Below, in pieces: positions 1,592 through 18,774 of a stretch of DNA of 43,702 nucleotides (positions are counted from its first letter, which is position 1; each line of letters begins with the position of its first letter). The stretch covers positions 1 to 43,702 of the forward strand of contig NZ_AULM01000030.1 of NCBI RefSeq assembly GCF_000422285.1. Reading direction: 5' to 3'. The translations under genes and the position numbers were made by a program. Origin of the DNA: Desulfatiglans anilini DSM 4660 (GTDB lineage: Bacteria > Desulfobacterota > DSM-4660 > Desulfatiglandales > Desulfatiglandaceae). The notes under the pieces were generated by a model. That model was not told the DNA's origin, did not search any database, and saw only the letters and a program-made list of their open reading frames with translations.

Positions 1592-3742
1592 ATGCGTTGG
1601 AAATGGTTCCTCGGCATTTTCGCCGTTATAATCGTCCTGACGGTCATGGCGGTTTATATCTTTGCTGCGACATACGACTATGACCGGCTCAGGCCCAGGA
1701 TCGTCCAGGCCATCAGGGATTCGACCGGCAGGGAGCTTCTGATCGAAAAGCCGCTGGCGGTCGAGATCGGTTTTTCACCCGTCATCGTCCTCGAGGAGGT
1801 GCGTTTCGGTGATTTTGGCGAAGATTCCGAAGCGGGCCTGCTGAGGGTCAAGCGCTGCGAGATCCAGATCGCCTTGCTGCCTCTGCTGAAGGATGTCCTG
1901 GAGGTCAAACGCCTCCAGTTGGTCGAGCCGCAGTTCCATGTCGATAGAAGCTCGCCCCCTGGGCCTCGAGCGCCAGGCGGCGCCGGACCCGGGACCGCCA
2001 GCGATTCAGGTCCTGTAAGTGCGACGGAGGAGGGGGCCGGTCAGCCGGCCCGGTCGGATGGCGCCGTCGAGCGGGGTGCTCAGCGGTTTCCGGCCTTTGG
2101 ATTCAAGGATGTCGAAGTGGTTGACGGGGTTGTCGTTTACCGGAGCGGGCCCGAGGGCGCCGTGCACACCCTTCGGCTGGAGCGTTTCGAGGCGCGGAGC
2201 GGTGGCATGGACGCCGATATCGACCTGGAAGCGAGTGGAGACTATGAAGGCCATCGTTTCGAGCTCAAGGGCCGCACGGGGGGGCTGCCGGCCCTGACAG
2301 ATCCGAAGAGGCCTTGGGATGTTCGTCTGGAGGGGCTTTTCGGCGGGGCCGCGATCTCGATCGAGGGGGAGATGGAGGATGTATTCCATATCCGCGGGGG
2401 GCGGTTCACGGTCTCCTTCCACGGTGAGGCCCTCGAGCCGCTGCCGTTTGTCGGGCCTCTGGGGATGACCGGCTTGCCGGAACCGTTCGAAGGGCGTTTC
2501 GAGATCGGTGATGTTGCGGCGGGCCGGTATCGAATCTCGGCCTTGCATATGAGGCTCGCGGAGAATACGCTCGAGGGCGAACTGGAGCTCGATACGAACG
2601 GGCCCATCCCGTCCATCGAAGGGGCGCTGTCGTCGGAGCGTTTGGATCTGAGGCCTTTTATCCCGAAAAGGGAGGCGGACGCCTCGAAGCCCGGGGCGGG
2701 GGCTTCCGGGAGCCGAGATGCAGCCGGCGGCGGGCGCGTCTTCTCCTCGGAGGCGATCCGGATCCCTTTCCCGGCCTGGCTGGTCCTGGATCTGAACTGC
2801 GCCTTCAAGAACGTGTTCATGCCCAAGTGGGCGTTTACAGATCTGGGTGCGCAGGTCCGGCTCTCGGACGGGCGTCTCCGGATCGAAGACCTGAAGGCGG
2901 ATACGGAAGCGGGCTCGGTCACCGGCCGGTTCCATTTCAAGGCTGCGGAGCGCGGGATTGTGCTTGACGCGCTGTGCAAGGTCACGAAGCTCGATGTGTC
3001 GCGGATGCTCAAGAAGTTGGGGGAGAAGCCGTCACTGGAGGGCGAACTCGACGCGGACCTCGATCTGCAGGGCCAGGGCGCGTCGTTTGCCGAGATTATG
3101 GCGGGCCTCGACGGGAAGATCTCCCTGGTGATGGGCGCAGGGCGGATCGATTCGTCGGGCTTCGACTTCTGGGGGGCCGATGTCGTTCAGAGCCTCATGC
3201 AGGTGGTCGATCCGGCCCGAAGGCCCCGATCCACCACGGACTTCAACTGCCTGGTGGCAGGGTTTCTCGTGACGGGGGGGCTTGCGCGCAGCACTGCGCT
3301 GGTCCTGGATACCGATGTCACGAGCCTCGTAGGGGAGGGGCAGGTGAATCTGCGCCATGAAACCCTTGATCTCGAGTTCGCCCTCATACCGAAATCGGGC
3401 CTCTCGGTGCCCGGCCTCGGCAAAGTGGGGATCACCATCGGGCAACTGACCCGGCCGTTCAAGGTGGGCGGCACCCTGAAGAAGCCCGCCGTCCGTTTCG
3501 ATGTTCATGAAACGGCCTGGGTGGTGGGAAAGGCCGTTGGCGGCTCGCTCCTTTTCGGGCCGGCCGGGATTGCCGCCGCTCTGGCCACCGGCGCCGCCGG
3601 CTCCGAAAACCCGTGTCTGGCGGCCGTGCGGGCGGCGGAAGCGGGGGTGCCGGTCAGGGAAGATGCCGGCACGCCGAAAGAACTCATCGACGGGATGGTC
3701 GATCAGGCAGGGAAACTGCTTGATCGCCTGTTGGGCAGATGA
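1592..3742 (+). CDS. AsmA-family inner-membrane-anchored envelope protein
   Basis: The protein has 716 residues. The frame is open further upstream, but the ATG at 1592 is preceded by a GGGGGAGG ribosome site and starts directly with a membrane anchor (about residues 4-27), so it is preferred. After the anchor comes the AsmA-type start YDYDRLRPRI, then a long beta-rich region. A low-complexity Gly/Pro/Ala/Ser linker lies near residues 115-160, and an AsmA C-terminal region near 480-660. AsmA-like proteins are large periplasmic proteins related to the bridge-like lipid-transfer group and affect outer-membrane lipid homeostasis. The specific substrate is unknown. The C-terminus has a Gly/Ala-rich hydrophobic stretch and a short charged tail. 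It stands alone before pxpA, 112 bases away. Confidence 0.82.
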   Translation: MRWKWFLGIFAVIIVLTVMAVYIFAATYDYDRLRPRIVQAIRDSTGRELLIEKPLAVEIGFSPVIVLEEVRFGDFGEDSEAGLLRVKRCEIQIALLPLLKDVLEVKRLQLVEPQFHVDRSSPPGPRAPGGAGPGTASDSGPVSATEEGAGQPARSDGAVERGAQRFPAFGFKDVEVVDGVVVYRSGPEGAVHTLRLERFEARSGGMDADIDLEASGDYEGHRFELKGRTGGLPALTDPKRPWDVRLEGLFGGAAISIEGEMEDVFHIRGGRFTVSFHGEALEPLPFVGPLGMTGLPEPFEGRFEIGDVAAGRYRISALHMRLAENTLEGELELDTNGPIPSIEGALSSERLDLRPFIPKREADASKPGAGASGSRDAAGGGRVFSSEAIRIPFPAWLVLDLNCAFKNVFMPKWAFTDLGAQVRLSDGRLRIEDLKADTEAGSVTGRFHFKAAERGIVLDALCKVTKLDVSRMLKKLGEKPSLEGELDADLDLQGQGASFAEIMAGLDGKISLVMGAGRIDSSGFDFWGADVVQSLMQVVDPARRPRSTTDFNCLVAGFLVTGGLARSTALVLDTDVTSLVGEGQVNLRHETLDLEFALIPKSGLSVPGLGKVGITIGQLTRPFKVGGTLKKPAVRFDVHETAWVVGKAVGGSLLFGPAGIAAALATGAAGSENPCLAAVRAAEAGVPVREDAGTPKELIDGMVDQAGKLLDRLLGR

Positions 3743-4664: not shown

Positions 4665-5375
4665 GTGATGGCGGGCGTGCTCTATGAGACGCCCCGGTTC
4701 AGGTTCAGCGGCGACCGGGGCCTTCTGATCGAATACGGGGAAGGGGTGGACCTTTCGGTGAACGAGAAGGTCCACCGGATGACCGCGTTGCTTCAAAGAG
4801 CTTTGCCAGATGGGGTCGAAGCCGTCATCCCCGGCTACTGTTCCATGTGCATCCTCTACGACCCCTGCAGGACCGGCCCGGCCGCCCTGGAACGACACGT
4901 CCTGGGTCTCGAAAATGCACAGGATCGCAGAGAGGCGGCGCCCGCCAGGACCGTGAGGATCCCGGTCTGCTACGGCGGTGAGTTCGGCCCGGACATCGGT
5001 TTCGTCGCCGCCGGTCACGGCCTCTCGGAGGAGGAGGTCATCCTCCTTCACACCGAACGGTCCTATCCCATCTATGCCATCGGGTTCGCGCCGGGGTTCT
5101 GCTACCTGGGGGGGCTGGACGAGCGGCTACACACCCCGCGGCTCGAGACCCCGCGCACACGGGTCCCCGCCGGATCGATCGGGATCGCCGATGACCAGAC
5201 CGGCGCCTACGCGCTCGAGACCCCCGGCGGCTGGCGGATCATCGGTCGCACGCCTCTGCGTCTCTTCGTCCCGGAACGCCCGGACCCTTTTCTCTACCGT
5301 GCCGGCGATCGGATCCGGTTTTCCCCTATTTCCCAGGAGAAATTCGACGCGATCGCCGTGGGTGACCAGGCATGA
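4665..5375 (+). CDS. pxpB: 5-oxoprolinase subunit PxpB (KipI/AHS1 family)
   Basis: The family signatures GFAPGFCYLGGL and RTRVPAGSIGIA are present, followed by a QTGAY motif and PGGWRIIGRTPLRLF. This is the allophanate-hydrolase-subunit-1-like (AHS1) fold that pairs with PxpC in the 5-oxoprolinase complex. The start is GTG at 4665 or, more likely, the next codon ATG at 4668. It begins 24 bases after pxpA ends, and its stop codon overlaps the pxpC start in an ATGA arrangement, implying translational coupling. In Bacillus the homologue KipI was first described as a kinase inhibitor; the PxpB role is preferred here because all three subunits are adjacent. Confidence 0.93.
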   Translation: MMAGVLYETPRFRFSGDRGLLIEYGEGVDLSVNEKVHRMTALLQRALPDGVEAVIPGYCSMCILYDPCRTGPAALERHVLGLENAQDRREAAPARTVRIPVCYGGEFGPDIGFVAAGHGLSEEEVILLHTERSYPIYAIGFAPGFCYLGGLDERLHTPRLETPRTRVPAGSIGIADDQTGAYALETPGGWRIIGRTPLRLFVPERPDPFLYRAGDRIRFSPISQEKFDAIAVGDQA

Positions 5376-6349
5376 CAACCGTCTTCGCAGTCATCGCCCC
5401 CGGCCCCCTGACCACGGTCCAGGATGCCGGGCGGGGCCGGTTCCTGCACATGGGGGTCCCGCTCTCCGGCGCCCTCGACCCCTTCGCCTGTCGGGTCGCC
5501 AACCGGCTCGTGGGGAATTCGGACGAGGCCGCCGTCCTCGAAATGACCTTTGCGGGCCCGCACCTTCGGGTGCTCGATGAGGTGGATCTGGCGGTGACCG
5601 GCGCGGACATGGTGTGGTCCGTAAATGGGGTTTCCGCCCCATGCTGGCGCACCGTAAGGGTCGGCAGGGGGGATGTGGTGCGGGTCGGGCAGGCTCGGAG
5701 CGGTTGCCGCGGCTATCTGGCGGTGACCGGCGGGGTCGATGTCCCGGTGGTCCTGGGCAGCCGGTCCACCTGTTTGAGCGGCCGGCTGGGCGGCATCGAA
5801 GGCAGGCCCCTCCGAAAAGGGGATCGGATCGCGCGGGGCGCGGGAGAGCTGCTGAAGCGGGCGCGCAGGTTACCGGACCCGCCGGTCTACGGGCGTACGG
5901 TCAGGCTTCGGGCGGTGCCGGGGCCCCAAGACGAATGTTTCCAAGGGTCCCTGAATCTCTTTTTCGAGGCGGTTTTCCAGGTCACTCCCCGGAGCGACAG
6001 GATGGGATGCCGATTGAACGGCCCGGTAGTCCAGCGCGAAGAGGGGGCTCCGCAGGGCATCGTCTCGGAGCCGTCCCTGCCGGGCAACGTGCAGGTGCCG
6101 CCGGACGGCCGTCCCATCGTGCTGCTGGTGGAGCAGACGATGGGGGGTTACACGAAGATCGCCACGGTGATCTCGCCGGACCTTTCCCGGATTGCGCAGG
6201 CCCGGCCGGGGGACACCGTCCGGTTCGACCGGGTGACGATCGAAGAAGCCCACGCGGTCTGCAGGGAAGCAGCCCGCAGACTGGCCGGGATCGACGCCCT
6301 CCTGGCCCTCCCCGTCAGCTGCCTGGAACGCCTCGGACTTCCTTTTTGA
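5372..6349 (+). CDS. pxpC: 5-oxoprolinase subunit PxpC (KipA/AHS2, biotin-dependent-carboxylase-like)
   Basis: The protein has 325 residues, a normal length for this family. The N-terminal region TTVQDAGRGRF...GVPLSGALDP...ANRLVGN is the classic AHS2 signature. A later GGYTKIATVISPDL segment matches the conserved C-terminal half. PxpC completes the ATP-dependent 5-oxoprolinase with PxpA and PxpB. Its ATG lies inside the pxpB stop codon (ATGA). The gene is convergent with korC, and the 172 bases between them contain no clear terminator. The glutamate produced could feed 2-oxoglutarate to the neighbouring Kor enzyme, but that link is only inferred from proximity. Confidence 0.93.
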   Translation: MTTVFAVIAPGPLTTVQDAGRGRFLHMGVPLSGALDPFACRVANRLVGNSDEAAVLEMTFAGPHLRVLDEVDLAVTGADMVWSVNGVSAPCWRTVRVGRGDVVRVGQARSGCRGYLAVTGGVDVPVVLGSRSTCLSGRLGGIEGRPLRKGDRIARGAGELLKRARRLPDPPVYGRTVRLRAVPGPQDECFQGSLNLFFEAVFQVTPRSDRMGCRLNGPVVQREEGAPQGIVSEPSLPGNVQVPPDGRPIVLLVEQTMGGYTKIATVISPDLSRIAQARPGDTVRFDRVTIEEAHAVCREAARRLAGIDALLALPVSCLERLGLPF

Positions 6350-6521
6350 GCCTTCTACGGAGAAGAGGGTCTTTTTGGCCCGGGAGGCCGTCAGGCTTCA
6401 AAGGCGGTCTTGTTCCATTCAACCGTTGGCCTTGTTCTCCAGCGGGTTTCATTCCTGCGCTTTGAATCGCCGTTCATTTTCCCTTCGCAGGGGCTGTCCG
6501 ATCAGCAACTCCGGCAGATGC

Positions 6522-7070
6522 TCACCGAGCGGCGAACGGCGCCGCGATCCCGCAGCCGAGGGCGAAGGCCTCCAGGTTGATGTCGAGGACGCCCGGCGGG
6601 ATCCTGTTCTGCAGCACCTTCTGGACCGATCCCGGCTGCACCACGCCGGTCAGCTCCACCACTGCGCCGAGCATACAGATATTGTAGACGATCGGCTTGC
6701 CGATCCGGTCCATGACCTCGCGGTACAGGGGCAGTTGGAAGAGCCGGGCGTCGACCCTGCCCTCCGGCTTCACGTAGCGCGGGTCCGTGAGCAGGATGCC
6801 CCCCGGGCGGATGATGCCGAAGAACTTGTTGTAGGCCTCCTGTGTCAGGCAAACCAGCACGTTCGGCTGGTTGGCCTTCGGAAACCGTATGGGCGAGTCC
6901 GAGATGATCACGTCCGAACGGGTGGCGCCGCCGCGGGCCTCGGGGCCGTAGGATTGGGACTGGGTGGCGACGAGGCCCTCGTGGAGCACCGCCGCCTCGG
7001 CGAGGATGATGGCCGCCGTGATGACCCCCTGGCCGCCGGACCCCGAAAAGACCAGCCTGCAACGTTCCAT
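6522..7070 (-). CDS. korC: 2-oxoacid:ferredoxin oxidoreductase, gamma subunit (KorC)
   Basis: This 182-residue gamma subunit starts with the nucleotide-binding-like motif SGSGGQGVITA, typical of the POR/KOR gamma domain. The longer open frame upstream runs through korB and is not used. The ATG at 7070 shares one base with the korB stop (TGATG), so translation is coupled. It is the last gene of the leftward korD-korA-korB-korC operon. With the other subunits it oxidatively decarboxylates a 2-oxoacid, most likely 2-oxoglutarate, to the acyl-CoA and reduces ferredoxin, or runs in reverse for CO2 fixation in a reductive TCA route. Confidence 0.92.
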   Translation of the reverse strand: MERCRLVFSGSGGQGVITAAIILAEAAVLHEGLVATQSQSYGPEARGGATRSDVIISDSPIRFPKANQPNVLVCLTQEAYNKFFGIIRPGGILLTDPRYVKPEGRVDARLFQLPLYREVMDRIGKPIVYNICMLGAVVELTGVVQPGSVQKVLQNRIPPGVLDINLEAFALGCGIAAPFAAR

Positions 7071-7879
7071 CAGGCACCCCCTTTCATCGCTTTTTGGATG
7101 ACCCTGTCGTATTCGCGGCAGTACTCGGGTTTTTGCTCCTGAACGAAGATGCCCCGTTCGATAAGGGCCGGGTTCCGTTGCTTGGCCTCTGAGCCGGTGG
7201 GCGTCGTGTTGTCCTTGAACCACTCCATCATGTCGGCGGCGTCGCCCATCTGGTTCTTGCGCCCGAAATAGGTCGGGCACTGGCTCATGATCTCGACCAC
7301 GGAGAATCCCGGATGGGTGAAGGCCTTTTTGAGGATGTCGACCATCTGCGTTATGTGGTAAGTGGTGGTGCGCGCAACGAAAGACGCCCCGGCCGCCTTC
7401 GAGAGGGTCACGACGTCGAAGTCGTGGTCGATGTTCCCGTAAGGCGCCGTGGTGGCCTTGCTGCCATACCCGGACAGGGGCGAGTATTGGCCGCCCGTCA
7501 TGCCGTAGATCCGGTTGTTCATCACGATGGCGGTCATCTCGATGTTGCGCCGGGCGGCGTGGATGAAATGGTTGCCCCCGATGGCCAGGGCGTCCCCGTC
7601 CCCCATGGGGACGATGACGTTCAGCTCAGGTTTGGTGATCTTCACCCCTGTGGCGAAGGCGAGCGCCCGGCCGTGAAGGGTGTGCAGGGAGTGGAAATCG
7701 ACGTAGCCGGAGATGCGGGAGGAGCAGCCGATTCCGGAGACCATGACGATGCTGTTCTTGTCCCAGCCGATCTCCATGACGGCGGTGATGAGCCCCCTCA
7801 GGACGATTCCGTGGCCGCAGCCGGGGCACCAGATGTGGGGGAAAAAACGTTCCCGGATGTAATCCTTGATATTCGGCAT
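7070..7879 (-). CDS. korB: 2-oxoacid:ferredoxin oxidoreductase, beta subunit (KorB, TPP- and Fe-S-binding)
   Basis: The protein has 269 residues. Cys18/Cys21 (WCPGCGHG) and Cys52 (GIGCSSR) are cluster-binding cysteines of the beta subunit. The thiamine-diphosphate/Mg motif GDGDALAIGGNHF starts near residue 93, with the downstream NNRIYGMTGGQ. These features and the separate A/B/C/D subunits favour the 2-oxoglutarate (Kor) branch over pyruvate (Por) or branched-chain (Vor) types, but substrate cannot be fixed by eye. It starts three bases after korA ends and its stop overlaps the korC start. Confidence 0.93.
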   Translation of the reverse strand: MPNIKDYIRERFFPHIWCPGCGHGIVLRGLITAVMEIGWDKNSIVMVSGIGCSSRISGYVDFHSLHTLHGRALAFATGVKITKPELNVIVPMGDGDALAIGGNHFIHAARRNIEMTAIVMNNRIYGMTGGQYSPLSGYGSKATTAPYGNIDHDFDVVTLSKAAGASFVARTTTYHITQMVDILKKAFTHPGFSVVEIMSQCPTYFGRKNQMGDAADMMEWFKDNTTPTGSEAKQRNPALIERGIFVQEQKPEYCREYDRVIQKAMKGGA

Positions 7880-7882
7880 CGG

Positions 7883-9031
7883 TCAAACCCCCTTCCCCTG
7901 AATGACCCTGAGAATGTTGCGAATGTCGGTCGGGTTGATGAACTGCCCGTCGATGCGGTTGGCCAACACGACCCGTTGGGGGTTGGAAACGGCCCGTTTG
8001 ACGGCCCGGACGATCTGGCCCATGTTCATCTCGACGACTACGATATGCTTGGCCGCCGCGCATTTTTCTTCCACCAGGCCGTAGGGGAAGGGCCACAGGG
8101 ATTGCAGCTCGAGCAGGCCCAGCCGCTCGCCCCTGGCCCGCCGGTTCTCGACGACGTGCAGGGCGGAGCGGGCCGAGCATCCGTAGGAGATCAAGACCGT
8201 CTCGGCATCCTCCAACTGGTATTCCCGGTACCGCGTGATCGCCTCGACGTTGTGCACGATCTTGTCCTTGAGGTGGCGGAGCAGTCCGTGGACGACACCT
8301 GGGTTGTCCGAGGGAAAGCCCCACATGTCATGGAAGAGCCCGGTGACATTGTAGCGGTGCTCGCCGCCGAAATCGGACATCGGGATCCGTCCATCTTCCC
8401 TCGGCAGATAGGGGTGGAAATCCACACCGGCTTTGACCGAGGTCCTCAGCCGCTGCACCACCGGAATGGCGCTTTCTTCGGGGATGACGAGGCCCTCCCG
8501 GAGATGACCGATGACCTCGTCGAAGAGGAGGATCACCGGCGTCCGGTAGGTTTCGGCCATGTTGAAGGCGTGGACCGTCATCTCGAAAACGTCCTGATGG
8601 TTCGATGCCGTGAGCGCGATGATGGCATGATCCCCGTGGACCCCCCATCGCGCCTGGTAGACGTCCCCCTGGCTCGGCCCCGTCGGTAGCCCGGTCGACG
8701 GTCCTCCGCGCTGCACATCCACAATGACGCAGGGGATCTCCGTCATGATGGCGTAGCCGAGGCCCTCCTGCATGAGGGAAAACCCCGGGCCGCTCGTGGC
8801 GGTCATCACCTTGTGCCCTGTCAGCGAGGCCCCGATGATGGCGCAGATGGAGGCGATTTCGTCCTCCATTTGGATGAATTTGCCTCCAAGCTGCGGGAGG
8901 CGGTAGGACATGTGCTCGGCGATCTCCGTCGAAGGGGTGATCGGGTACCCGGCGAAGAATTCCACCCCTGCATAAAGCGCCGCCTCCACGCAGGCCTCGT
9001 TTCCCTGAACGAATCGAATCGACCCTTCCAT
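7883..9031 (-). CDS. korA: 2-oxoacid:ferredoxin oxidoreductase, alpha subunit (KorA)
   Basis: This 382-residue alpha subunit contains GYPITPSTEIAE near residue 28 (pyrimidine-binding domain entry), a SGPGFSLMQEG segment, and RGGPSTGLPT followed by QGD, all standard in KorA/PorA N-domains. A C-terminal transketolase-like domain follows. It supplies the catalytic Glu side of the TPP site, with KorB completing it. It begins directly after the korD stop (9032) with no spacer, and korB follows after three bases, so all four genes are one transcript. Confidence 0.94.
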   Translation of the reverse strand: MEGSIRFVQGNEACVEAALYAGVEFFAGYPITPSTEIAEHMSYRLPQLGGKFIQMEDEIASICAIIGASLTGHKVMTATSGPGFSLMQEGLGYAIMTEIPCVIVDVQRGGPSTGLPTGPSQGDVYQARWGVHGDHAIIALTASNHQDVFEMTVHAFNMAETYRTPVILLFDEVIGHLREGLVIPEESAIPVVQRLRTSVKAGVDFHPYLPREDGRIPMSDFGGEHRYNVTGLFHDMWGFPSDNPGVVHGLLRHLKDKIVHNVEAITRYREYQLEDAETVLISYGCSARSALHVVENRRARGERLGLLELQSLWPFPYGLVEEKCAAAKHIVVVEMNMGQIVRAVKRAVSNPQRVVLANRIDGQFINPTDIRNILRVIQGKGV

Positions 9032-9943: not shown

Positions 9944-12900
9944 ATGATGCATTGGATCGTGCTCGTTTCCGGATTCATCACCCTGGTTTTGTCGCCTGTT
10001 TTTGCTTGCGCCGACGGTTTCAACGCTCCTGTTCCTCCGGCCAAAGACAACCCTCCTCGGGTGGCATTCCAGGGGATGCCCCTCCGCTTTGTTGCCAATG
10101 CAGGTCAAGTGGATCCACATGTCATGTTTTATGCCCGGGCGTCGGGTTACACCTTGTGGGTGACGGCCGAGGGTATGGTCTTCGACGTGGTGCGGGCCGA
10201 ATCGAGCAAGACAGCGGTGGCCGGGGGTTCATCAACAGGGTTGGAAAAGGAAGCCATCAAGAGGGAGGTGACCAGACTCTCCTTTCCAGGCGCCGTGAAG
10301 ATGCCCGAGTTGGAGGCCCTCGAGGAGGCGGAATGCCGCGTAAACGTCATCAGGGGGCCGGACTGCCAACACTGGAAGACCGGGATTCCCACTTTTCAAT
10401 CCGTTATGTACCGGGGGATTTATGAAGGGATAGACCTCAAAGTCTACGGGATGGCGAGGCAGGTCGAGTATGACTGGATTGTGGGGCCAGGGGCGGATCC
10501 CGGGCGTATCTGTCTCAAATATGCCGGGGTACGGGGTAGCCGGATAGACGATAAGGGGGATCTGAGGATCGAAACGGTTCACGGCGAACTGATCCACCGG
10601 CGTCCGTTGAGTTATCAAGAATTCGAGGGCCGCCGTGTGGCGGTGGCATCGGGTTACCGGAAAACGGGGGAAGATACGTACGCTTTCGAGGTGGGCTCCT
10701 ACGACCGCAGTCGACCGCTCGTTATCGACCCCGTTGTTGTGACGCAAGAAGCATTTCTTGGCGGCGCAGCGGACGATTTTTTGAACGGCGCCGCAGTGGA
10801 CTGCGACGGACAGGCTTATCTTGCAGGCATTACGCTCAGCAGCGATTTCCCTCTGGAAAACTCCTGTCGGGTTGATCCCAACGATACCGACATCTTTCTT
10901 GTCCAAATCGACACCACCCGGCCGGCTGCTGAGAATCCAGTTTATGCAACCTATCTCGGCGGGAGCGGGCAGGAATTCGGCGGATGGATAGCGGCTGGCG
11001 ACGACGGAAATGTCTATATTACAGGGTGGACGGACAGTCCGGATTTTCCGGTCTTAGCCGGGTGTCAGTTGAATCTTCGAGGGGATGCCGATGCCTTCCT
11101 GATTCGGATCGACACCACCCGGAAGGGTGTCGAAAGCCTCATCTATGCAACCTATTTCGGGGGAACCGGAGGCGATCTTGCTTATGCGGTAGCGGTAGAC
11201 GGCCGGGAGAACGCGTATATCGCCGGTTCCACGGACAGTCTGGATCTGGCGGGTCTGCACGAGAAATTCCGCTCGGGATTCCAGCCGCAGCCGAAGGGCG
11301 GTCAGGATGCCTTTATGGTCCAATTGGATACGCGTCTTGAAGGCTCCGAAAGCTTGGTTTACGCCACGCATCTCGGTGGCAGCCAGCATGAGAGCGGGTT
11401 GGGCGTGGCGGTAAACAGCCGCGGCTTGACCTTCGTCACAGGCTCCACCTTCAGCTTCGATTTCCCCGTTCTCAATGGTTGTCAGCCCGAATTGTCAGGG
11501 CGTTGCGATGCCTTTCTGGCCTGTCTGGACACGGCCAAAGAGGGACATCAAGGCCTCGTCTATGCGACCTTTGTCGGTGGGGAAAAGACGGAAACAGGCT
11601 ATGGCGTGGCCGTAGACGACAGGTACGGAGCCGTTCTGGTCGGAGACACGGAAAGCCGTGATTTCCCGGTCCTGAACGGCTGTCAAACGGCTTTGAGGGG
11701 GGGCGTGGACGTCTTTGCGGCCAAAATAGATACAACCCGCAGCGGTTCAGAAGGCCTTGTCTACTCGACTTACCTCGGGGGAAGCGGTATCGAAGCATGT
11801 TCGGCTGTTGCTCTGGATGTCGATGAACATATCTATGTGACCGGACAGACGGCCAGTTTGGATTTTCCTGTCCGTGACGGGTATCAAGGTGGACTGAAGG
11901 GTGAGAGCGACGTCTTCGTGGTCACCTTGGATACAGGGTTGAGCAGCGCGGCAAGCCTGGTTTTCTCGGCCTTTCTGGGTGGGGAAGGCCGGGAATACGG
12001 AAGCGCCGTCGCAGCGGGGTCCAACGGTACCGTCTATGTTGCCGGGGTAACGGATGGCCCGCGTCCCGATAACGGCGCGCTGGCCGCTGGACAACCTGCC
12101 GGCACGCGGCATGACCTTTTTCTGATCGTACTGGGTGAGAACGCGGCTTCTGGGGTGGATTTGAGCATAGGGAAAGACGTCAGCAACGCCAACCCCTCGA
12201 AGGGCGAGGAAATCGCTTTCACCCTCACGGCAATGAACCACAGCACGCAAAATGCCACGCAAGTCGCAGTGGAAGATCTTCTCCCTGCGGGGTTGGTATT
12301 TGTGTCCGCTTTTACGGCTGTCGGAGGCTATGACCCCCACAGGGGCCTCTGGCATATCGGCGACCTCGCCGCGGGCGGGAGTGTTTCATTGGATATCGTC
12401 GTCCAGGTGTCCGCCGGCGCGGCGGGTCGAATCGAAAATAGGGCCGAAATCCGGAGCGCTGAAAACGATGTGCATGGGTGGGACAACACCGCCGTCGCCA
12501 CGGTATATATGGATCCCTTTCATATGATCAGAGCGACGGCCGGACCGAACGGCAGGATCCACCCGGCCGGCGAGATCTATGGAAACCAAGGCTCTGCCCA
12601 GACCTTCACCATCACACCGGACGCTGGATACGTTATCAAAAACGTTCTCGTAGACGGTGCATCCGTAGGGGCGGTGGCCCGCTACACGTTCCCTTCCATA
12701 GTGGTCAATCATACTATCCATGCGGTCTTCGCCGAAGAGGGCCTGGTCAACGGCGATTTGAATGAGGACGGCGAGATAACGGTCCAGGATGCAAAATGCG
12801 CCTTGGACGTTTCCCTGGGGATTTGCCCGACCGATTGCGGGGCGTGTGACGAACTGCCTTCCGCAGATGTCGACAGGGACGGGAGCGTGACTGCGGCCGA

Positions 12901-12952
12901 TGCGCAATGCATTCTGGATAAAGCCATGGGGCGTCCGAGCTGCCTCGATTGA
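9944..12952 (+). CDS. Secreted SBBP-repeat (seven-bladed propeller) protein with DUF11-like domain and C-terminal dockerin
   Basis: The preferred start is ATG 9944 (next codon also ATG) after a GGAG site, giving 1002 residues with a signal peptide cut after ACA (residue 23). Domains in order: a conserved N-domain starting RFVANAGQVD (about 45-260); seven SBBP-type repeats (about 264-715), each with a YATYLGG-like strand and a later GxTxSxDFP strand, spaced near 67 residues; a DUF11-like domain (about 735-855); a GRIHPAG bacterial repeat (about 859-932); and a type I-like dockerin (about 934-1001). The dockerin has two calcium loops, DLNEDGEITVQD and DVDRDGSVTAAD. Several repeats share a GCQ motif. 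The next gene encodes a cohesin, the usual dockerin partner, so this protein is probably docked at the cell surface. The ligand or enzymatic role is unknown. Confidence 0.88.
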   Translation: MMHWIVLVSGFITLVLSPVFACADGFNAPVPPAKDNPPRVAFQGMPLRFVANAGQVDPHVMFYARASGYTLWVTAEGMVFDVVRAESSKTAVAGGSSTGLEKEAIKREVTRLSFPGAVKMPELEALEEAECRVNVIRGPDCQHWKTGIPTFQSVMYRGIYEGIDLKVYGMARQVEYDWIVGPGADPGRICLKYAGVRGSRIDDKGDLRIETVHGELIHRRPLSYQEFEGRRVAVASGYRKTGEDTYAFEVGSYDRSRPLVIDPVVVTQEAFLGGAADDFLNGAAVDCDGQAYLAGITLSSDFPLENSCRVDPNDTDIFLVQIDTTRPAAENPVYATYLGGSGQEFGGWIAAGDDGNVYITGWTDSPDFPVLAGCQLNLRGDADAFLIRIDTTRKGVESLIYATYFGGTGGDLAYAVAVDGRENAYIAGSTDSLDLAGLHEKFRSGFQPQPKGGQDAFMVQLDTRLEGSESLVYATHLGGSQHESGLGVAVNSRGLTFVTGSTFSFDFPVLNGCQPELSGRCDAFLACLDTAKEGHQGLVYATFVGGEKTETGYGVAVDDRYGAVLVGDTESRDFPVLNGCQTALRGGVDVFAAKIDTTRSGSEGLVYSTYLGGSGIEACSAVALDVDEHIYVTGQTASLDFPVRDGYQGGLKGESDVFVVTLDTGLSSAASLVFSAFLGGEGREYGSAVAAGSNGTVYVAGVTDGPRPDNGALAAGQPAGTRHDLFLIVLGENAASGVDLSIGKDVSNANPSKGEEIAFTLTAMNHSTQNATQVAVEDLLPAGLVFVSAFTAVGGYDPHRGLWHIGDLAAGGSVSLDIVVQVSAGAAGRIENRAEIRSAENDVHGWDNTAVATVYMDPFHMIRATAGPNGRIHPAGEIYGNQGSAQTFTITPDAGYVIKNVLVDGASVGAVARYTFPSIVVNHTIHAVFAEEGLVNGDLNEDGEITVQDAKCALDVSLGICPTDCGACDELPSADVDRDGSVTAADAQCILDKAMGRPSCLD
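10735..12090 (+). repeat. Seven tandem SBBP repeats of about 200 bases within the dockerin protein gene
   Basis: The (F/L)xGG codon clusters recur near 10755, 10951, 11149, 11365, 11567, 11768 and 11970, a spacing of 196-216 bases. Seven copies equal the blade number of a common beta-propeller. The copies are diverged at DNA level, so this is protein-level repetition rather than recent duplication. Confidence 0.75.
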
Positions 12953-12986
12953 CGTTCCTTCATTTCCTTTGTCGAGATTTGAAGGC

Positions 12987-13009
12987 GCCGCCGCTAAAGG
13001 GCAGGCGGC
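12987..13009 (+). terminator. Weak intergenic hairpin between dockerin and cohesin genes
   Basis: GCCGCC (12987-12992) pairs with GGCGGC (13004-13009) around an 11-base loop. The following ATGGTTTGGTT is only moderately T-rich. It may reduce read-through or mark an mRNA processing point between the two genes. Confidence 0.3.
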
Positions 13010-13019
13010 ATGGTTTGGT

Positions 13020-13025
13020 TATAAT
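13020..13025 (+). promoter_or_regulatory. Possible -10 element ahead of the cohesin gene
   Basis: A perfect TATAAT lies 45 bases before the GTG start at 13070, in a short AT-rich patch. No matching -35 hexamer is present at 16-18 bases upstream. It could be an internal promoter for the cohesin and TpsA-like genes, or chance. Confidence 0.25.
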
Positions 13026-13069
13026 TTCACAGTGCTGCAAATTCTTAGAACAAGGAAAGGGTGATCGTA

Positions 13070-13903
13070 GTGGACGGCAAAACAATCCGAGCATCCAGGG
13101 AGTGGTTAGCTCTTTTCCTTATCCTTCTGCTGACCGCTGCAACGGCGGTCGATGTCGGTGCAGGAACGATCGAAAGGGGGCTCTATTTGGCGGAAAATGC
13201 CTGTCCCTCACCGGGACAGTACGTTTTCGAAGTCCATGTGGTCGATGCCCCTAACGATTTGGGCGCTTTCATGTTCGAAGTCCGGTTCGACACGGCCGTT
13301 TTGTCATTTGATGGAGGAGAAAAAGGTCCGCTGATATCCGGATTCGTTTCGGATCATAACGAGATCGTTCCAGGTGTGATAAGGGTCGGGGGCTATTATC
13401 TTTCCAATAAACTGCCAAGCGGCTGTTCAGGGGTCTTGTATCGGCTGGTGTTTACCGCTGCTCAATGCATATGCAGCCGTTTGGAATTGATCAACTTGAA
13501 GGACAGTGTCGCGGGGTGGGATGTCCATGATGCCTTTCTGAAGGTTGACCCCGTTATCGGGCGTTTCACGGCGACACCGGAATGCATAAAGCCAGGGGGA
13601 AATTTGACCTTGTCCTGGGCGGTGGAGGGTGCGGAGAGCATGTCGATCACGCCCGATCCGGGATCTGTGGATCCATCAGGGGGGAGTCTCCAGGTCAGTC
13701 CTTCGCAGTCGACCACCTACATCCTGAGGGCCCTGAACGCCTGCGGCGAGACGACCGCCGCGGTCAAGGTGTCGGTGGAGCAGGATGCCTGCGCCGTTCC
13801 TGCCTTGAGCAAATGGGGCGCTATGATCATCGCAGTTCTCCTCGGAGGTGTCTGCGTTCGCTTTCTGAGGCGTCGAAAAACCGGGGAGAGGTTGAAATGG
13901 TGA
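13070..13903 (+). CDS. Cohesin-domain surface protein with Ig-like domain and IPTL-CTERM-like sorting tail
   Basis: The protein has 277 residues from GTG 13070, which lies nine bases after AAGGAAAGG; GTG 13061 is in frame but abuts that site. A signal peptide is followed by a cohesin-like domain (about residues 28-155): PGQYVFEVHV, LGAFMFEVRFD-AVLSF, PGVIRVGGYY and GVLYRLVFTA follow the order of cohesin beta strands. An Ig-like domain comes next (about 160-240), then the tail VPALSKWGAMIIAVLLGG and RRRK, which closely resembles the IPTL-CTERM signal processed by exosortase-type enzymes in Gram-negatives. It is likely an envelope-held receptor for the dockerin protein encoded upstream. Its stop overlaps the next gene by seven bases. 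No exosortase is in the window. Confidence 0.8.
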   Translation: MDGKTIRASREWLALFLILLLTAATAVDVGAGTIERGLYLAENACPSPGQYVFEVHVVDAPNDLGAFMFEVRFDTAVLSFDGGEKGPLISGFVSDHNEIVPGVIRVGGYYLSNKLPSGCSGVLYRLVFTAAQCICSRLELINLKDSVAGWDVHDAFLKVDPVIGRFTATPECIKPGGNLTLSWAVEGAESMSITPDPGSVDPSGGSLQVSPSQSTTYILRALNACGETTAAVKVSVEQDACAVPALSKWGAMIIAVLLGGVCVRFLRRRKTGERLKW

Positions 13904-16900
13904 CGACGTTTGGAAGGGTCGCGAGAGAATGCAAGAGAGGTTTGAAGCACATGCTTCGGAGTCTGCGGGGCACACGCCATCGGTTTGCCTTTTGCATCGC
14001 CTTCACAGCTTTGTCGGCGCTGATTTCCAGCGGGGCGTCCGCGTTTCCCGAAGAGAAAACTGCGGCCCTCCCCGTCAATGGGCGGATCGTTTTCGGAGAA
14101 GGGCATATCCAGACGGTTGGACAGACTCTAACGATCAGCCAGACCTCCAGCCGGATGATCATCGAATGGGAGAGTTTCGATATCGGTGCGAGTGCTGCGG
14201 TTATCATCCGGCAAAGCGATGCCTGCTGTGCCGTCTTGATTCGAACCGGCAGATCCGGGCCGAGTGAGATTCACGGCCGGCTCAGCGCTGAAGGAGCCCT
14301 ATTTCTGGTGAATCGTTCGGGCATTCTCTTCGGCCCGGCGGCTCAGGTGAAGGCGACAGAGTTCTTTGCTTCCAGTCAGTCTATAACGGGGGCAGCATTC
14401 TTGTCGGGGGAAACGGCCTTTGCATCATCATCCGGCCTTTCCGGGTTTCTCTGGAACGCGGGGAGGATCGAGGCCGCCGCAGGCGGCCGGGCGGTTCTCA
14501 TTGCCCCGCGGATCGAAAACGAGGGGGTGATCGAGACCTCCTCCGGGCCGGTGCTTATGGTGGCGGGGGATTCGATGCGTCTGACCGGTGAAGGGAGAGA
14601 CATCCTGGAATTCCATCCAGCACCAGGCAAGATGGATGTCTGGATCGAAAACCGGGGGGTCATCCGGGCGGATGGTGGTACGGTGGCGTTGAAAGCTGCA
14701 GCGGTAGAGGAGGGGAGGACGGCTACGGTAATCAATTCAGGGATTATTGAGGCGAAGGCCCTGTCAAATTGTGCCGGACGGATTCTGCTCTTGTCGGACC
14801 GCATGCGAGGGGAGGTCATCGTCGGAGGAACGCTCGACGCGTTGGACTCCGAGGGAACTGGGGGAGGGTTTATAGAGACGTCGGCGGGCAAGGTTTCAGT
14901 GAAAGACAATCTGCGTGTTGCGACGAGCGTGCACGGTCGAACCGGGGGGCTGTGGGTCATCGATCCTGAGGATTTCACTATCGCTTCCTCCGGGGGAGAC
15001 ATAACGGGTGAGGGACTTTCCAGAGCCTTGGCCCAAGGCAGCGTGAGGATTGAAACCTCTGCCAGCGGCAGGGGCGGTCAGGGCGACATTTTTGTCAATG
15101 ACAAAATCACGTGGGGTCGGAACACCTTGACCCTTTCCGCTTTCCGCAACATCGAGATCAACAGCGACTTGTCCGGGTCCGAAGAGGCCATGCTGATCCT
15201 GGAATACGGCCAGGGATCTGGTGACGGGATAATCGAAGGGACCCAAGCTGAATATCTTATCAGGGCACCCATCAACCTGCCGGGGGGTGACACCTTTCAA
15301 ACGCGCTGCGGGAGTGAACGCCCGGCGATGGATTTCAGGGTGGTTACCCATCTGGGAAATCCAGGCAGCCGAACGACAGAGGATCTCCAGGGGATGCTGG
15401 GGGATCTCAGTCGCCATTATGCTTTGGGGGCCGATATCGATGCCTCGGCCACACGGAACTGGCATGATGGTTCCGGGTTCGAACCTGTTGGCGGGAATGA
15501 AAGCGATTATCGTGTAAGAGATCGATTTGCAGGCCATTTCGATGGGCTTGGGCATACCATCAGCGGGCTTCACATCGGAAGGCAGGGCAGGAATTTTGTC
15601 GGCCTTTTCGGTGCCATCGAAGAAGGCTGTGTCGCCCATGTATGTCTGGAACATCCTTCTATAAGAGGGACTGTGGGAGTGGGAGCTCTGATTGGCAGAG
15701 CCGTGAAAGCACGGATCGAGAACGTATGGAGTAATGGCGATGTCATTGGAGAGCACAGTGTCGGCGGGGTGGTCGGTGTTTGCATCGGTTCCGATATGTA
15801 TTCATGCACCAGCGGGGGTTCGGTGAGCGGAACGGTAGAAGCTGGCGGGCTTGCAGGTTCGGCATGGGAAGAGACACACATCGAGGATTGCAGCAGCAGG
15901 GGGACTGTGTCGGGTAACGGGATCGTCGGCGGGCTGGTGGGAAAGGCGAATGACAGGTCGGAGATTCATGGTTGCAGCAGTGTCGCAGATGTTTCACTGA
16001 ACGGGCAGAGTGTGGAAAGGTGTGCAGGCGGTCTTGCAGGAGAGATTAACAGTGGCACGATTAGCGGCAGTCACAGCAAGGGGAATGTCACGCTTAGCGG
16101 TTTATGGGGTCATGGCGGAGGCCTGGTTGGCGCAGCCGTTGGTTCGACCATTTTCTCGAATTGGAGCACCTCCGCCGTGGTCCAGAATATCGATGAGAAA
16201 AATTCGGGTGCCCTCGGCGGTCTGGCGGGGGTTTCCGCGGACAGTTGCATCGAGAACTGCTGGAGCGTCGGCAATGTTCTTGGCAAGGGCTATGCGGGCG
16301 GATTGGTGGGTGAGCTGTTGTGTTCGGGTATTTCTTGGAGTTGGAGCAGCAGTGAAGTGAAAGGCGGGAACTGGACCGGTGGTCTTGTGGGGTATTCTGG
16401 GGATTCGACTATTGTATCCTGTTGGAGCAACGCTCACGTGGAGGGTGATGGAGGTCTGGGTGGTTTGGTCGGGTACTTCTGCAAGGAAAGCGGGAGTGAG
16501 GTTAGGATAGGGAACAGTTGGAGCAGTGGTTCCGTAAATGGAACGGCCGCAATTGGGGGGTTGGTCGGGATTCTTCAAGAATCTGGCGTGGAAAACAGCT
16601 GGAGCGACGCTTCTGCAGGGGGGAGTCTATTCGTCGGCGGTCTGGTGGGAATGATCAGTGACGGCCGCATCGAGAACAGTTGGTGTGTCGGTGAAGTCGT
16701 TGGGGAAGACCATTTTGGCGGATTGGTGGGGGGTAAGTATTGGGGATCTGGTTACGTCTCCAGGAGTTTTTGGGATAGGGAGACCTCGGGCCAGGCGACT
16801 TCGGCCCTTGGCACGGGCAAGACGACGGCCGAGATGAAAAAATTATCCACCTTTGTAAACGCGGGTTGGGACATCGACGACGCAGGGGGCACCGGAAAGG

Positions 16901-17493
16901 TATGGCGCATTTATGGGGGATACAGCTATCCACTCCTGCGCTGTTTTCTTCCCCCCATAACGGCTGCTTTCACATGTCAGCAAAAGGGCAGCGGATCGTA
17001 CGCCAAAATATACGACGGAACAAAATGCCTGCCCGATGGTTGCGTGTGCAGCTTATCCTGGGCCGACAAGCCGGGGGGTTTCGATGAAGGAAAGATCCTC
17101 GGTGAACCTATTTTCATGACCGAAGGCAAGGATGTGGGATTGCGGTCCGTCGTCCTGGGCGGCCTTTACAGTGATCAGCAGGGATATGATATCAAGTTCC
17201 AAGGGAACCAGACGGTCGAGGTTCTTCCTCGGCCGATCACTGCGTCCTGTGCAGTCGAAGACAAGGTCTATGACGGCACGACTACGGCACGAGTGTCAGG
17301 CTTCCTGACAGGGGTCGTTGCCGGGGATGACGTAGGCTTTAAGTGCACCGCCGCCTATTTCGCTGACCGGAATATGGGCACCGGCAAGGCGGCCACGGTA
17401 TGGGATCTTGGACTGGCGGGCCGGGACAGCGGCAACTATGTCTTGGAGGAGACCGATGTGACAGCTGTTGCCGACATCGTTCTCAAAAAATAA
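13897..17493 (+). CDS. TpsA-like filamentous exoprotein with GLUG and YDG repeats
   Basis: The protein has 1198 residues. ATG 13897 has a GGAGAGG site and overlaps the cohesin gene (ATGGTGA), so the two are coupled; ATG 13951 is an alternative. A long signal peptide ends near residue 49 (SSGASA). Residues 50-220 resemble the two-partner-secretion/haemagglutination domain, with NGRIVFGEGHIQTVGQ and LFLVNRSGILFGPAAQV (NRSG where NPNG is usual). A filamentous beta-helix region with WVIDPEDFTI follows (about 220-500), then GLUG repeats (about 521-948) introduced by HFDGLGHTISGL, and two YDG/MBG-like domains at the C-terminus (KIYDGT, KVYDGTT). It is probably exported by a TpsB pore not seen here and acts as an adhesin or surface filament. 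Confidence 0.87.
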   Translation: MVTTFGRVARECKRGLKHMLRSLRGTRHRFAFCIAFTALSALISSGASAFPEEKTAALPVNGRIVFGEGHIQTVGQTLTISQTSSRMIIEWESFDIGASAAVIIRQSDACCAVLIRTGRSGPSEIHGRLSAEGALFLVNRSGILFGPAAQVKATEFFASSQSITGAAFLSGETAFASSSGLSGFLWNAGRIEAAAGGRAVLIAPRIENEGVIETSSGPVLMVAGDSMRLTGEGRDILEFHPAPGKMDVWIENRGVIRADGGTVALKAAAVEEGRTATVINSGIIEAKALSNCAGRILLLSDRMRGEVIVGGTLDALDSEGTGGGFIETSAGKVSVKDNLRVATSVHGRTGGLWVIDPEDFTIASSGGDITGEGLSRALAQGSVRIETSASGRGGQGDIFVNDKITWGRNTLTLSAFRNIEINSDLSGSEEAMLILEYGQGSGDGIIEGTQAEYLIRAPINLPGGDTFQTRCGSERPAMDFRVVTHLGNPGSRTTEDLQGMLGDLSRHYALGADIDASATRNWHDGSGFEPVGGNESDYRVRDRFAGHFDGLGHTISGLHIGRQGRNFVGLFGAIEEGCVAHVCLEHPSIRGTVGVGALIGRAVKARIENVWSNGDVIGEHSVGGVVGVCIGSDMYSCTSGGSVSGTVEAGGLAGSAWEETHIEDCSSRGTVSGNGIVGGLVGKANDRSEIHGCSSVADVSLNGQSVERCAGGLAGEINSGTISGSHSKGNVTLSGLWGHGGGLVGAAVGSTIFSNWSTSAVVQNIDEKNSGALGGLAGVSADSCIENCWSVGNVLGKGYAGGLVGELLCSGISWSWSSSEVKGGNWTGGLVGYSGDSTIVSCWSNAHVEGDGGLGGLVGYFCKESGSEVRIGNSWSSGSVNGTAAIGGLVGILQESGVENSWSDASAGGSLFVGGLVGMISDGRIENSWCVGEVVGEDHFGGLVGGKYWGSGYVSRSFWDRETSGQATSALGTGKTTAEMKKLSTFVNAGWDIDDAGGTGKVWRIYGGYSYPLLRCFLPPITAAFTCQQKGSGSYAKIYDGTKCLPDGCVCSLSWADKPGGFDEGKILGEPIFMTEGKDVGLRSVVLGGLYSDQQGYDIKFQGNQTVEVLPRPITASCAVEDKVYDGTTTARVSGFLTGVVAGDDVGFKCTAAYFADRNMGTGKAATVWDLGLAGRDSGNYVLEETDVTAVADIVLKK
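15460..16740 (+). repeat. Array of GLUG-type repeats in the TpsA-like gene
   Basis: The encoded pattern GGLVG, then about 8-12 residues, then (I/V)ENSWSxGxVxG, recurs roughly a dozen times at about 35-45 residues per unit. Asn-Ser-Trp-Ser clusters become more uniform towards the 3' half. This resembles the GLUG motif found in large surface and adhesin proteins. DNA copies are diverged. Confidence 0.7.
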
Positions 17494-17526: not shown

Positions 17527-18774
17527 TCAATAGATTTTTTCATCTTCTGCGAATGCCTCGGGTGCGTCGCTTTCATAGTCCCGCTCACGCCCGCCCTTTT
17601 TGCGCAGGGTGTACTCCCGGTACCACTCGTGGGCGGTGATCAGGGCCATCACCTCGTTCGATCCGGTCCAGATGGAGGCGAGCCCGAGGTCGCGCACGAT
17701 CCGTTCGATGGGGAAGACATTGGTGTATCCGATGCCGCCCATGACCTGCATGGCCTTGCGCGCGGCTTCCTGGCACGATTCGGTGACGAACTTCTTGGTT
17801 TCGCTTACCAGCCGGCGGATGGTGTTGGGGTCTTGACCCGACTCGATGGCCCGGGCGGTGGTGTAGACGAGCGAGCGGCTGGCATCGAGAAGGGTCGCAG
17901 CCTCCGCGACCTGGAAGCTGACCCCCTGGAACTGGTTGATGGTCTGGCCGAAGGCCTTGCGCCGGGTGGTGTACCCCGTGGCGATATCCAGGGCGGGCCG
18001 GGCGGCGCCGATGGTCATGGCGGCGGTCCCGAGGCGCTCCGGGATCATCATCGTGTTGAAGACCTTGTAGGCCCCGTTCAGCCTCCCCACGATGTTTTCC
18101 CTGGGCACCACGGCATCCTTGAAGACCAGGCGGCCGGCGCCCCCGCCGCGGCACCCCATGAGGCCGTAAAGGTAGCTGACCTCTACACCCGGCCCCCGAT
18201 CCACGACGAAGCAGGTCAGGGCCTTGTGGGGGTGGGTCTGGGGGTCGTGATCGGTGCGGGCGTAGACAAGGAAGTAGTCGGCGCCCTCCGCCCCCACAAT
18301 AAAGCGCTTCTGTCCGGTGAGTAGAAAATGGTCGCCGCTCTCGATGGCAGAGGTGGAGGTGCCGAAAAAGTCGGAGCCTCCCCGGGGTTCGGTCAGGCAC
18401 TCGGCGGCGAAGATCTTACCTGCCAGCAGCGGTTTGACATATTTCTTTTTGAGGTCGTCGCTCCCATGGAGCACAATGGCGTCGCAGACGAGTTCCGCCC
18501 CCACCCCGAAGGTGCAGGCGAAGATATAGCCGAGGGTCCCGATCTCTTCCATGACCGCGCAGGTGGCCACCCAGTCCATGCCCCGGCCGCCCCACTTCTT
18601 GGGGTAACGGCAGCCAAGGAGGTTGCGGCGTCCGGCCTCCTGCAGAAATTCCCGGGGGAAGACGATCCTTTCCCGGTCCATGTCCAGGATCATCTCCCGC
18701 GGCACCCATGCCACGAGGTCCCTGGCTTCCTCCACGATCTGTTTCTGGGCCTGGCTCAGCAGGAATTCATACAT
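17527..18774 (-). CDS. Acyl-CoA dehydrogenase
   Basis: This 415-residue cytoplasmic flavoprotein oxidises an acyl-CoA to the 2,3-enoyl-CoA and passes electrons to ETF. Family marks: LTEPRGGSD near residue 127, the RKAFGQTINQFQ helix near 272, and MQVMGGIGYTNVFPIERIVRD near 342-362. At the position of the medium-chain enzyme's catalytic Glu (before the GT/GS turn) there is Thr370 (IWTGSNE). Glu246 in PERL sits in helix G where isovaleryl- and long-chain enzymes carry their base, so catalysis probably uses Glu246. The substrate could be branched, long or aromatic-derived. It stands alone with its own terminator; 262 non-coding bases separate it from pabC. Confidence 0.92.
   Translation of the reverse strand: MYEFLLSQAQKQIVEEARDLVAWVPREMILDMDRERIVFPREFLQEAGRRNLLGCRYPKKWGGRGMDWVATCAVMEEIGTLGYIFACTFGVGAELVCDAIVLHGSDDLKKKYVKPLLAGKIFAAECLTEPRGGSDFFGTSTSAIESGDHFLLTGQKRFIVGAEGADYFLVYARTDHDPQTHPHKALTCFVVDRGPGVEVSYLYGLMGCRGGGAGRLVFKDAVVPRENIVGRLNGAYKVFNTMMIPERLGTAAMTIGAARPALDIATGYTTRRKAFGQTINQFQGVSFQVAEAATLLDASRSLVYTTARAIESGQDPNTIRRLVSETKKFVTESCQEAARKAMQVMGGIGYTNVFPIERIVRDLGLASIWTGSNEVMALITAHEWYREYTLRKKGGRERDYESDAPEAFAEDEKIY

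Follow-up and report, generated by a model that had tools for sequence, protein, structure and literature searches.

A putative exosortase-anchored cohesin encoded beside a dockerin-bearing beta-propeller protein in Desulfatiglans anilini

Within a 43,702-nucleotide stretch of the Desulfatiglans anilini DSM 4660 genome (the window), a gene for a secreted beta-propeller protein with a C-terminal dockerin is followed by a gene for a cohesin-like protein with a sorting tail and by a large TPS-domain gene (genes 1, 2 and 3). Genes 1 and 2 probably encode a surface docking pair, in which an exosortase-anchored cohesin keeps the secreted propeller protein on the cell surface or within the matrix; gene 3 probably encodes a neighbouring surface protein and not a bound subunit. 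Cohesin-dockerin pairs are best known from cellulose digestion. Non-cellulosomal cohesins and dockerins occur in many organisms, and we know of no established role for them.

The propeller-dockerin gene and the cohesin gene

Genes 1 (9944-12952), 2 (13061-13903) and 3 (13897-17493) all lie on the forward strand, between opposite-strand genes for a POR-type oxidoreductase subunit (7883-9031) and an acyl-CoA dehydrogenase (17527-18774); only 33 bases separate the stop of gene 3 from the latter. Their G+C content is 0.58, 0.56 and 0.57, respectively, and that of the flanks 0.64 and 0.61. The ATG of gene 3 stands at 13897, behind a ribosome-binding-like GGAGAGG, and the TGA of gene 2 at 13901-13903; these coordinates bear out the 7-base overlap (13897-13903, forward strand) between the cohesin gene and the TpsA-like gene given in a preliminary description of the locus. 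A plasmid search returned no match and an Rfam scan of the window none at gathering score; a sub-threshold Rfam match to Magnesium-II within gene 1 was dismissed.

The reading frame of gene 1 is open from 9650, and translation likely starts at 9944 because the N-terminus there is signal-like and TTGGAG lies upstream. The secreted product of about 1002 residues comprises, by Pfam search, a DUF7948 domain (residues 49-264, E 8e-60) and an SBBP beta-propeller (E 6.5e-15), together with a DUF11 domain (residues 739-854), an InlB-like repeat (Flg_new_2, residues 861-931) and a C-terminal two-loop type I dockerin with a Cys-rich linker (12752-12910, forward strand; Dockerin_1, residues 937-989, E 1.9e-4). 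Both 12-residue loops of the dockerin, DLNEDGEITVQD and DVDRDGSVTAAD, are canonical and intact. The Dockerin_1 score is 22.0 bits in hmmscan, just below the cut-off of 22.9, and 24.2 bits, above it, in the genome-wide search. Among solved chains, its nearest relatives by sequence are mostly cellulosomal dockerins, although the matches are weak. With the SBBP and Dockerin_1 matches and the canonical loops, the reading of gene 1 as a secreted beta-propeller protein ending in a two-loop dockerin stands as first proposed.

The 280-residue product of gene 2 combines a hydrophobic N-terminus that reads as signal-like, a divergent cohesin domain (residues 36-168 as modelled; 13166-13564, forward strand), an Ig-like domain (residues 155-243; 13523-13789, forward strand) and an IPTL-CTERM tail. 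By sequence the cohesin is faint: its Pfam match is sub-threshold (15.5 bits against a cut-off of 24.1, E 0.02), hhalign aligns it to PEP-CTERM cohesins with a probability of 21, and a sequence search of solved structures returned no cohesin among its matches. Of the pair that had been described, profile searches recovered the dockerin above its cut-off in the genome-wide search and the cohesin as a sub-threshold match. A scan of named genomes with gene 2 as sole query found no match, and gene 2 has no orthologue within the order, where matches are confined to its Ig-like domain and tail; the order's relatives of the Ig-like domain are mostly repeats within large proteins.

Structure prediction gave an eight-strand beta fold for the cohesin domain (pLDDT 73.8, pTM 0.71). 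The first 35 Foldseek matches to this model are cohesins, as are nearly all down to rank 50 and all three with E < 0.001, and the top 46 matches from VIA are likewise cohesins, with Z up to 9.1. The alignment behind the model included 14 related cohesins, and folding from the single sequence reached a pLDDT of only 36.6; because of this dependence, the fold matches are good support for a cohesin, short of proof. There is thus a slender chance that gene 2 carries some other immunoglobulin-like beta-sandwich surface domain that lies beside a dockerin by coincidence, as the sub-threshold Pfam score, the low hhalign probability and the lack of a confident model without the alignment would allow. 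We consider this very unlikely, since the fold matches are almost throughout to cohesins, the neighbouring gene encodes a dockerin, and a distant locus described below (L101) pairs a partner of this architecture with a cohesin that scores better. The fold matches, and a tail that scores above its cut-off, agree with the initial description of a cohesin-like domain with a membrane-sorting tail.

Sorting tail, exosortase and recurrence of the pair

The sorting signal of gene 2 (13793-13873, forward strand), of the IPTL-CTERM type that goes with exosortase XrtH, consists of PALSKWG, a hydrophobic stretch and RRRK. It scores 21.8 bits against the IPTL-CTERM cut-off of 20.8 in the genome search, and also matches midcut_by_XrtH (E 2.3e-4) under that model's cut-off. 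The genome encodes a single XrtH exosortase (90.9 bits, over the cut-off of 86), in whose sequence Cys, Arg and His follow one another as expected. Twelve IPTL-CTERM matches were found in the genome at E up to 1, and six of these, gene 2 included, exceed the cut-off. On another contig of this genome (C17; L029 1-7732), three genes with IPTL-like tails are clustered, in frames 1-1395, 4880-6484 and 6866-7732.

The genome contains two cohesins of note, each in a single-cohesin gene, and three dockerins over the cut-off, all three of which lie within about 0.8 kb of the two tailed cohesins. The second set, on contig C19 (L011 10015-11529), consists of a cohesin-IPTL gene followed by genes for two secreted dockerin proteins of 105 and 111 residues, hardly more than a dockerin each. 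It is flanked by a Wzy_C gene and by BBP2_2, Poly_export and Wzz genes and, by its gene content, sits in an exopolysaccharide locus. No glycoside hydrolase domain was found in genes 1-3 or in the examined proteins of the C19 set, and the combination that marks a cellulosome, a multi-cohesin scaffoldin with dockerin-bearing glycoside hydrolases, does not occur among them.

Two cohesins and three dockerins in one genome, with residues that differ at loop positions 10-11 as read from sequence, could also point to cross-pairing: the gene 1 dockerin would bind the C19 cohesin, gene 2 would bind other ligands or the C19 mini-dockerins, and genes 1 and 2 would be adjacent because surface proteins of the XrtH route are co-regulated. 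Tailed cohesins and dockerins are, however, preferentially adjacent in the genomes described below, which points to cognate pairs, and we regard cross-pairing as improbable.

In a survey of the phylum, 43 of 394 genomes had a cohesin match. A set of 52 cohesin-bearing genomes holds 75 dockerins. Of these, 21 lie no more than 5 kb from a cohesin, 13 being encoded by a gene of their own and 8 by the frame that also encodes the cohesin, where random positions would give 0.38. A separate dockerin gene lies nearby for six of the nine tailed cohesins versus 7 of the 74 others (Fisher p 3e-4). One of the three tailed exceptions (L081) is directly followed by three genes with dockerin-like repeats that are sub-threshold in Pfam. 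The closest parallel to genes 1 and 2 is L101, from another family, distant in the phylum, where a DUF7948-SBBP-dockerin gene adjoins a cohesin gene with a PEP-CTERM tail; its propeller-dockerin protein matches gene 1 with a phmmer E of 4.9e-105. L101 also contains a c-di-GMP-I-GGC riboswitch (2900-3039, reverse strand; 61.3 bits, cut-off 59), in the interval that separates the propeller-dockerin gene from the next large gene encoded on that strand.

Scanning named genomes with three PEP-CTERM cohesins as queries yielded 18 cohesin loci, two of which (L106 and L109) were already in the phylum survey. They come from Desulfobulbaceae, other Deltaproteobacteria, Methylococcaceae, Nitrospirae, Steroidobacter, Myxococcota, Thioalkalivibrio, Colwellia and Thalassotalea. 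A PEP-CTERM-like tail ends all 18 cohesin frames, a count that is not independent of the search because the query carried such a tail. At least 11 of the 18 loci (in Desulfobacterota, Methylococcaceae and Thalassotalea) have an adjacent dockerin gene, and the dockerin partners are frequently propellers of other types (BNR, NHL/SMP-30 or PQQ). In a Methylococcaceae locus (L113 3422-8624), a c-di-GMP-I riboswitch (44.9 bits against a cut-off of 35) heads a series of genes with PEP-CTERM-like ends, which a BNR-dockerin gene and a cohesin-PEP-CTERM gene complete. With the tail and XrtH identified and the pairing found in distant taxa, the earlier suggestion of a pair untied to polysaccharide degradation is supported. 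Gene order elsewhere upholds that description in part: cohesin-dockerin adjacency recurs in a range of unrelated Gram-negative bacteria, where nothing evident ties it to cellulose breakdown, and no TPS homologue of gene 3 accompanies it in the other cohesin loci examined.

The TPS-domain gene and the same-genus site

Gene 3 encodes a 1198-residue protein with a TPS domain (PF05860, E 1.9e-18), GLUG repeats and a YDG domain, and without a sorting tail. No ShlB match was found in the genome, and POTRA_2 gave only a sub-threshold match (17.7 bits against a cut-off of 24) in a 928-residue frame. A TpsB is thus likely, not certainly, absent, since the genome is 98.7% complete, and the usual two-partner secretion of gene 3 is unlikely given these two search results. 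The label "TpsA-like" therefore fits the TPS domain of gene 3 and not the expectation of a cognate TpsB.

A genome of the same genus (G039) shares this site, with flanks 90-97% identical. It carries a single TPS homologue of 1135 residues (L129 1600-5007, reverse strand), 39% identical to gene 3 over 737 residues, whose InlB-like, TIG and IPTL-CTERM ends gene 3 lacks; the IPTL-CTERM end scores 20.7 bits against a cut-off of 20.8. That site contains neither gene 1 nor gene 2, and because they have no orthologue in the same-genus genome the pair is, on this comparison, accessory. We favour gain of genes 1 and 2 in one lineage over loss in the other because both are low in G+C and sporadic, although gene 3 has a similar G+C content and two genomes cannot tell the alternatives apart.

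The preliminary description had included the filamentous protein as a third component. Such a three-part assembly would join the cohesin, the propeller-dockerin protein and the TPS filament, the last perhaps tethered via the cohesin protein, its own tail having been lost. Three features would fit: the overlap of 7 bases suggests that genes 2 and 3 are translationally coupled, all three genes run in one direction as a unit bounded by opposite-strand neighbours, and gene 3 lacks the IPTL tail of its same-genus homologue. Nevertheless, gene 3 contains no dockerin, no homologue of it was found in the other cohesin loci examined, and G039 has the TPS gene by itself, ending in an IPTL tail of its own. 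These observations speak against a third component, and we consider such an assembly unlikely.

Proposed mechanism and comparison with known systems

For genes 1 and 2 as a surface docking pair, we propose that gene 2 would be exported and its IPTL-CTERM tail recognised by XrtH, and that processing would leave the cohesin on the cell surface or within the exopolysaccharide layer, as the tail and the single XrtH suggest. The C-terminal dockerin of gene 1 would then bind the gene 2 cohesin in a calcium-dependent manner and thereby keep the propeller protein attached in trans; the domain types and the recurrent pairing argue for this step. The likely role would be matrix or surface assembly and not polysaccharide digestion, consistent with the C19 set in its exopolysaccharide locus and with c-di-GMP control of a related operon. 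It is possible, though we lean slightly against it, that exosortase-anchored cohesins serve Gram-negative bacteria generally as a docking system, which retains exchangeable secreted proteins (often beta-propellers) in a matrix under c-di-GMP control, and that, separately, the TPS-domain proteins of this genus reach the surface via XrtH and not by two-partner secretion.

A tailed cohesin with its dockerin partner in the next gene makes the role of non-cellulosomal pairs testable in culturable bacteria, among them Thalassotalea eurytherma JCM 18482, which has such a pair. If the proposal is correct, trans attachment of proteins would be added to the functions of exosortase systems, and cognate cohesin-dockerin pairs would become available for protein engineering.

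As in cellulosomes (C. thermocellum CipA; the sortase-anchored scaffoldin of Ruminococcus flavefaciens), the secreted partner of the pair bears a calcium-loop dockerin, and the protein predicted to be anchored has a cohesin fold. The pair differs from cellulosomes in that genes 1-3 encode a single cohesin and no scaffoldin array, cellulose-binding module or glycoside hydrolase, and in that the anchoring signal of the gene 1-2 pair is an IPTL/PEP-CTERM tail for exosortase. Gene 3 is like the TpsA proteins of two-partner secretion in its TPS domain and large repeat region, and unlike them in that no TpsB was found in its genome and the same-genus homologue has an IPTL end. An adhesin role has been proposed for cohesin and dockerin proteins from syntrophic sulfate-reducing bacteria and from ANME archaea, and adjacent cohesin and dockerin domains are reported in Hot-Seep1 (PMC10553843, PMC5244752); the available portions of these papers mention neither a cohesin sorting tail nor a propeller-dockerin partner. 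PEP-CTERM/exosortase surface proteins (PMC1569441; the floc-forming PepA, PMC9850573) share the tripartite tail, the exosortase and the exopolysaccharide context. In PMC1569441 cohesin and dockerin are not mentioned, whereas the tail of gene 2 carries a putative docking socket for another protein. A limited literature search found no work joining exosortase sorting with cohesin-dockerin pairs and no publication with PEP-CTERM together with cohesin and dockerin; one publication names both exosortase and dockerin, unconnected in the part of its text available. In summary, exosortase anchoring would be a new variant among non-cellulosomal cohesin-dockerin systems.
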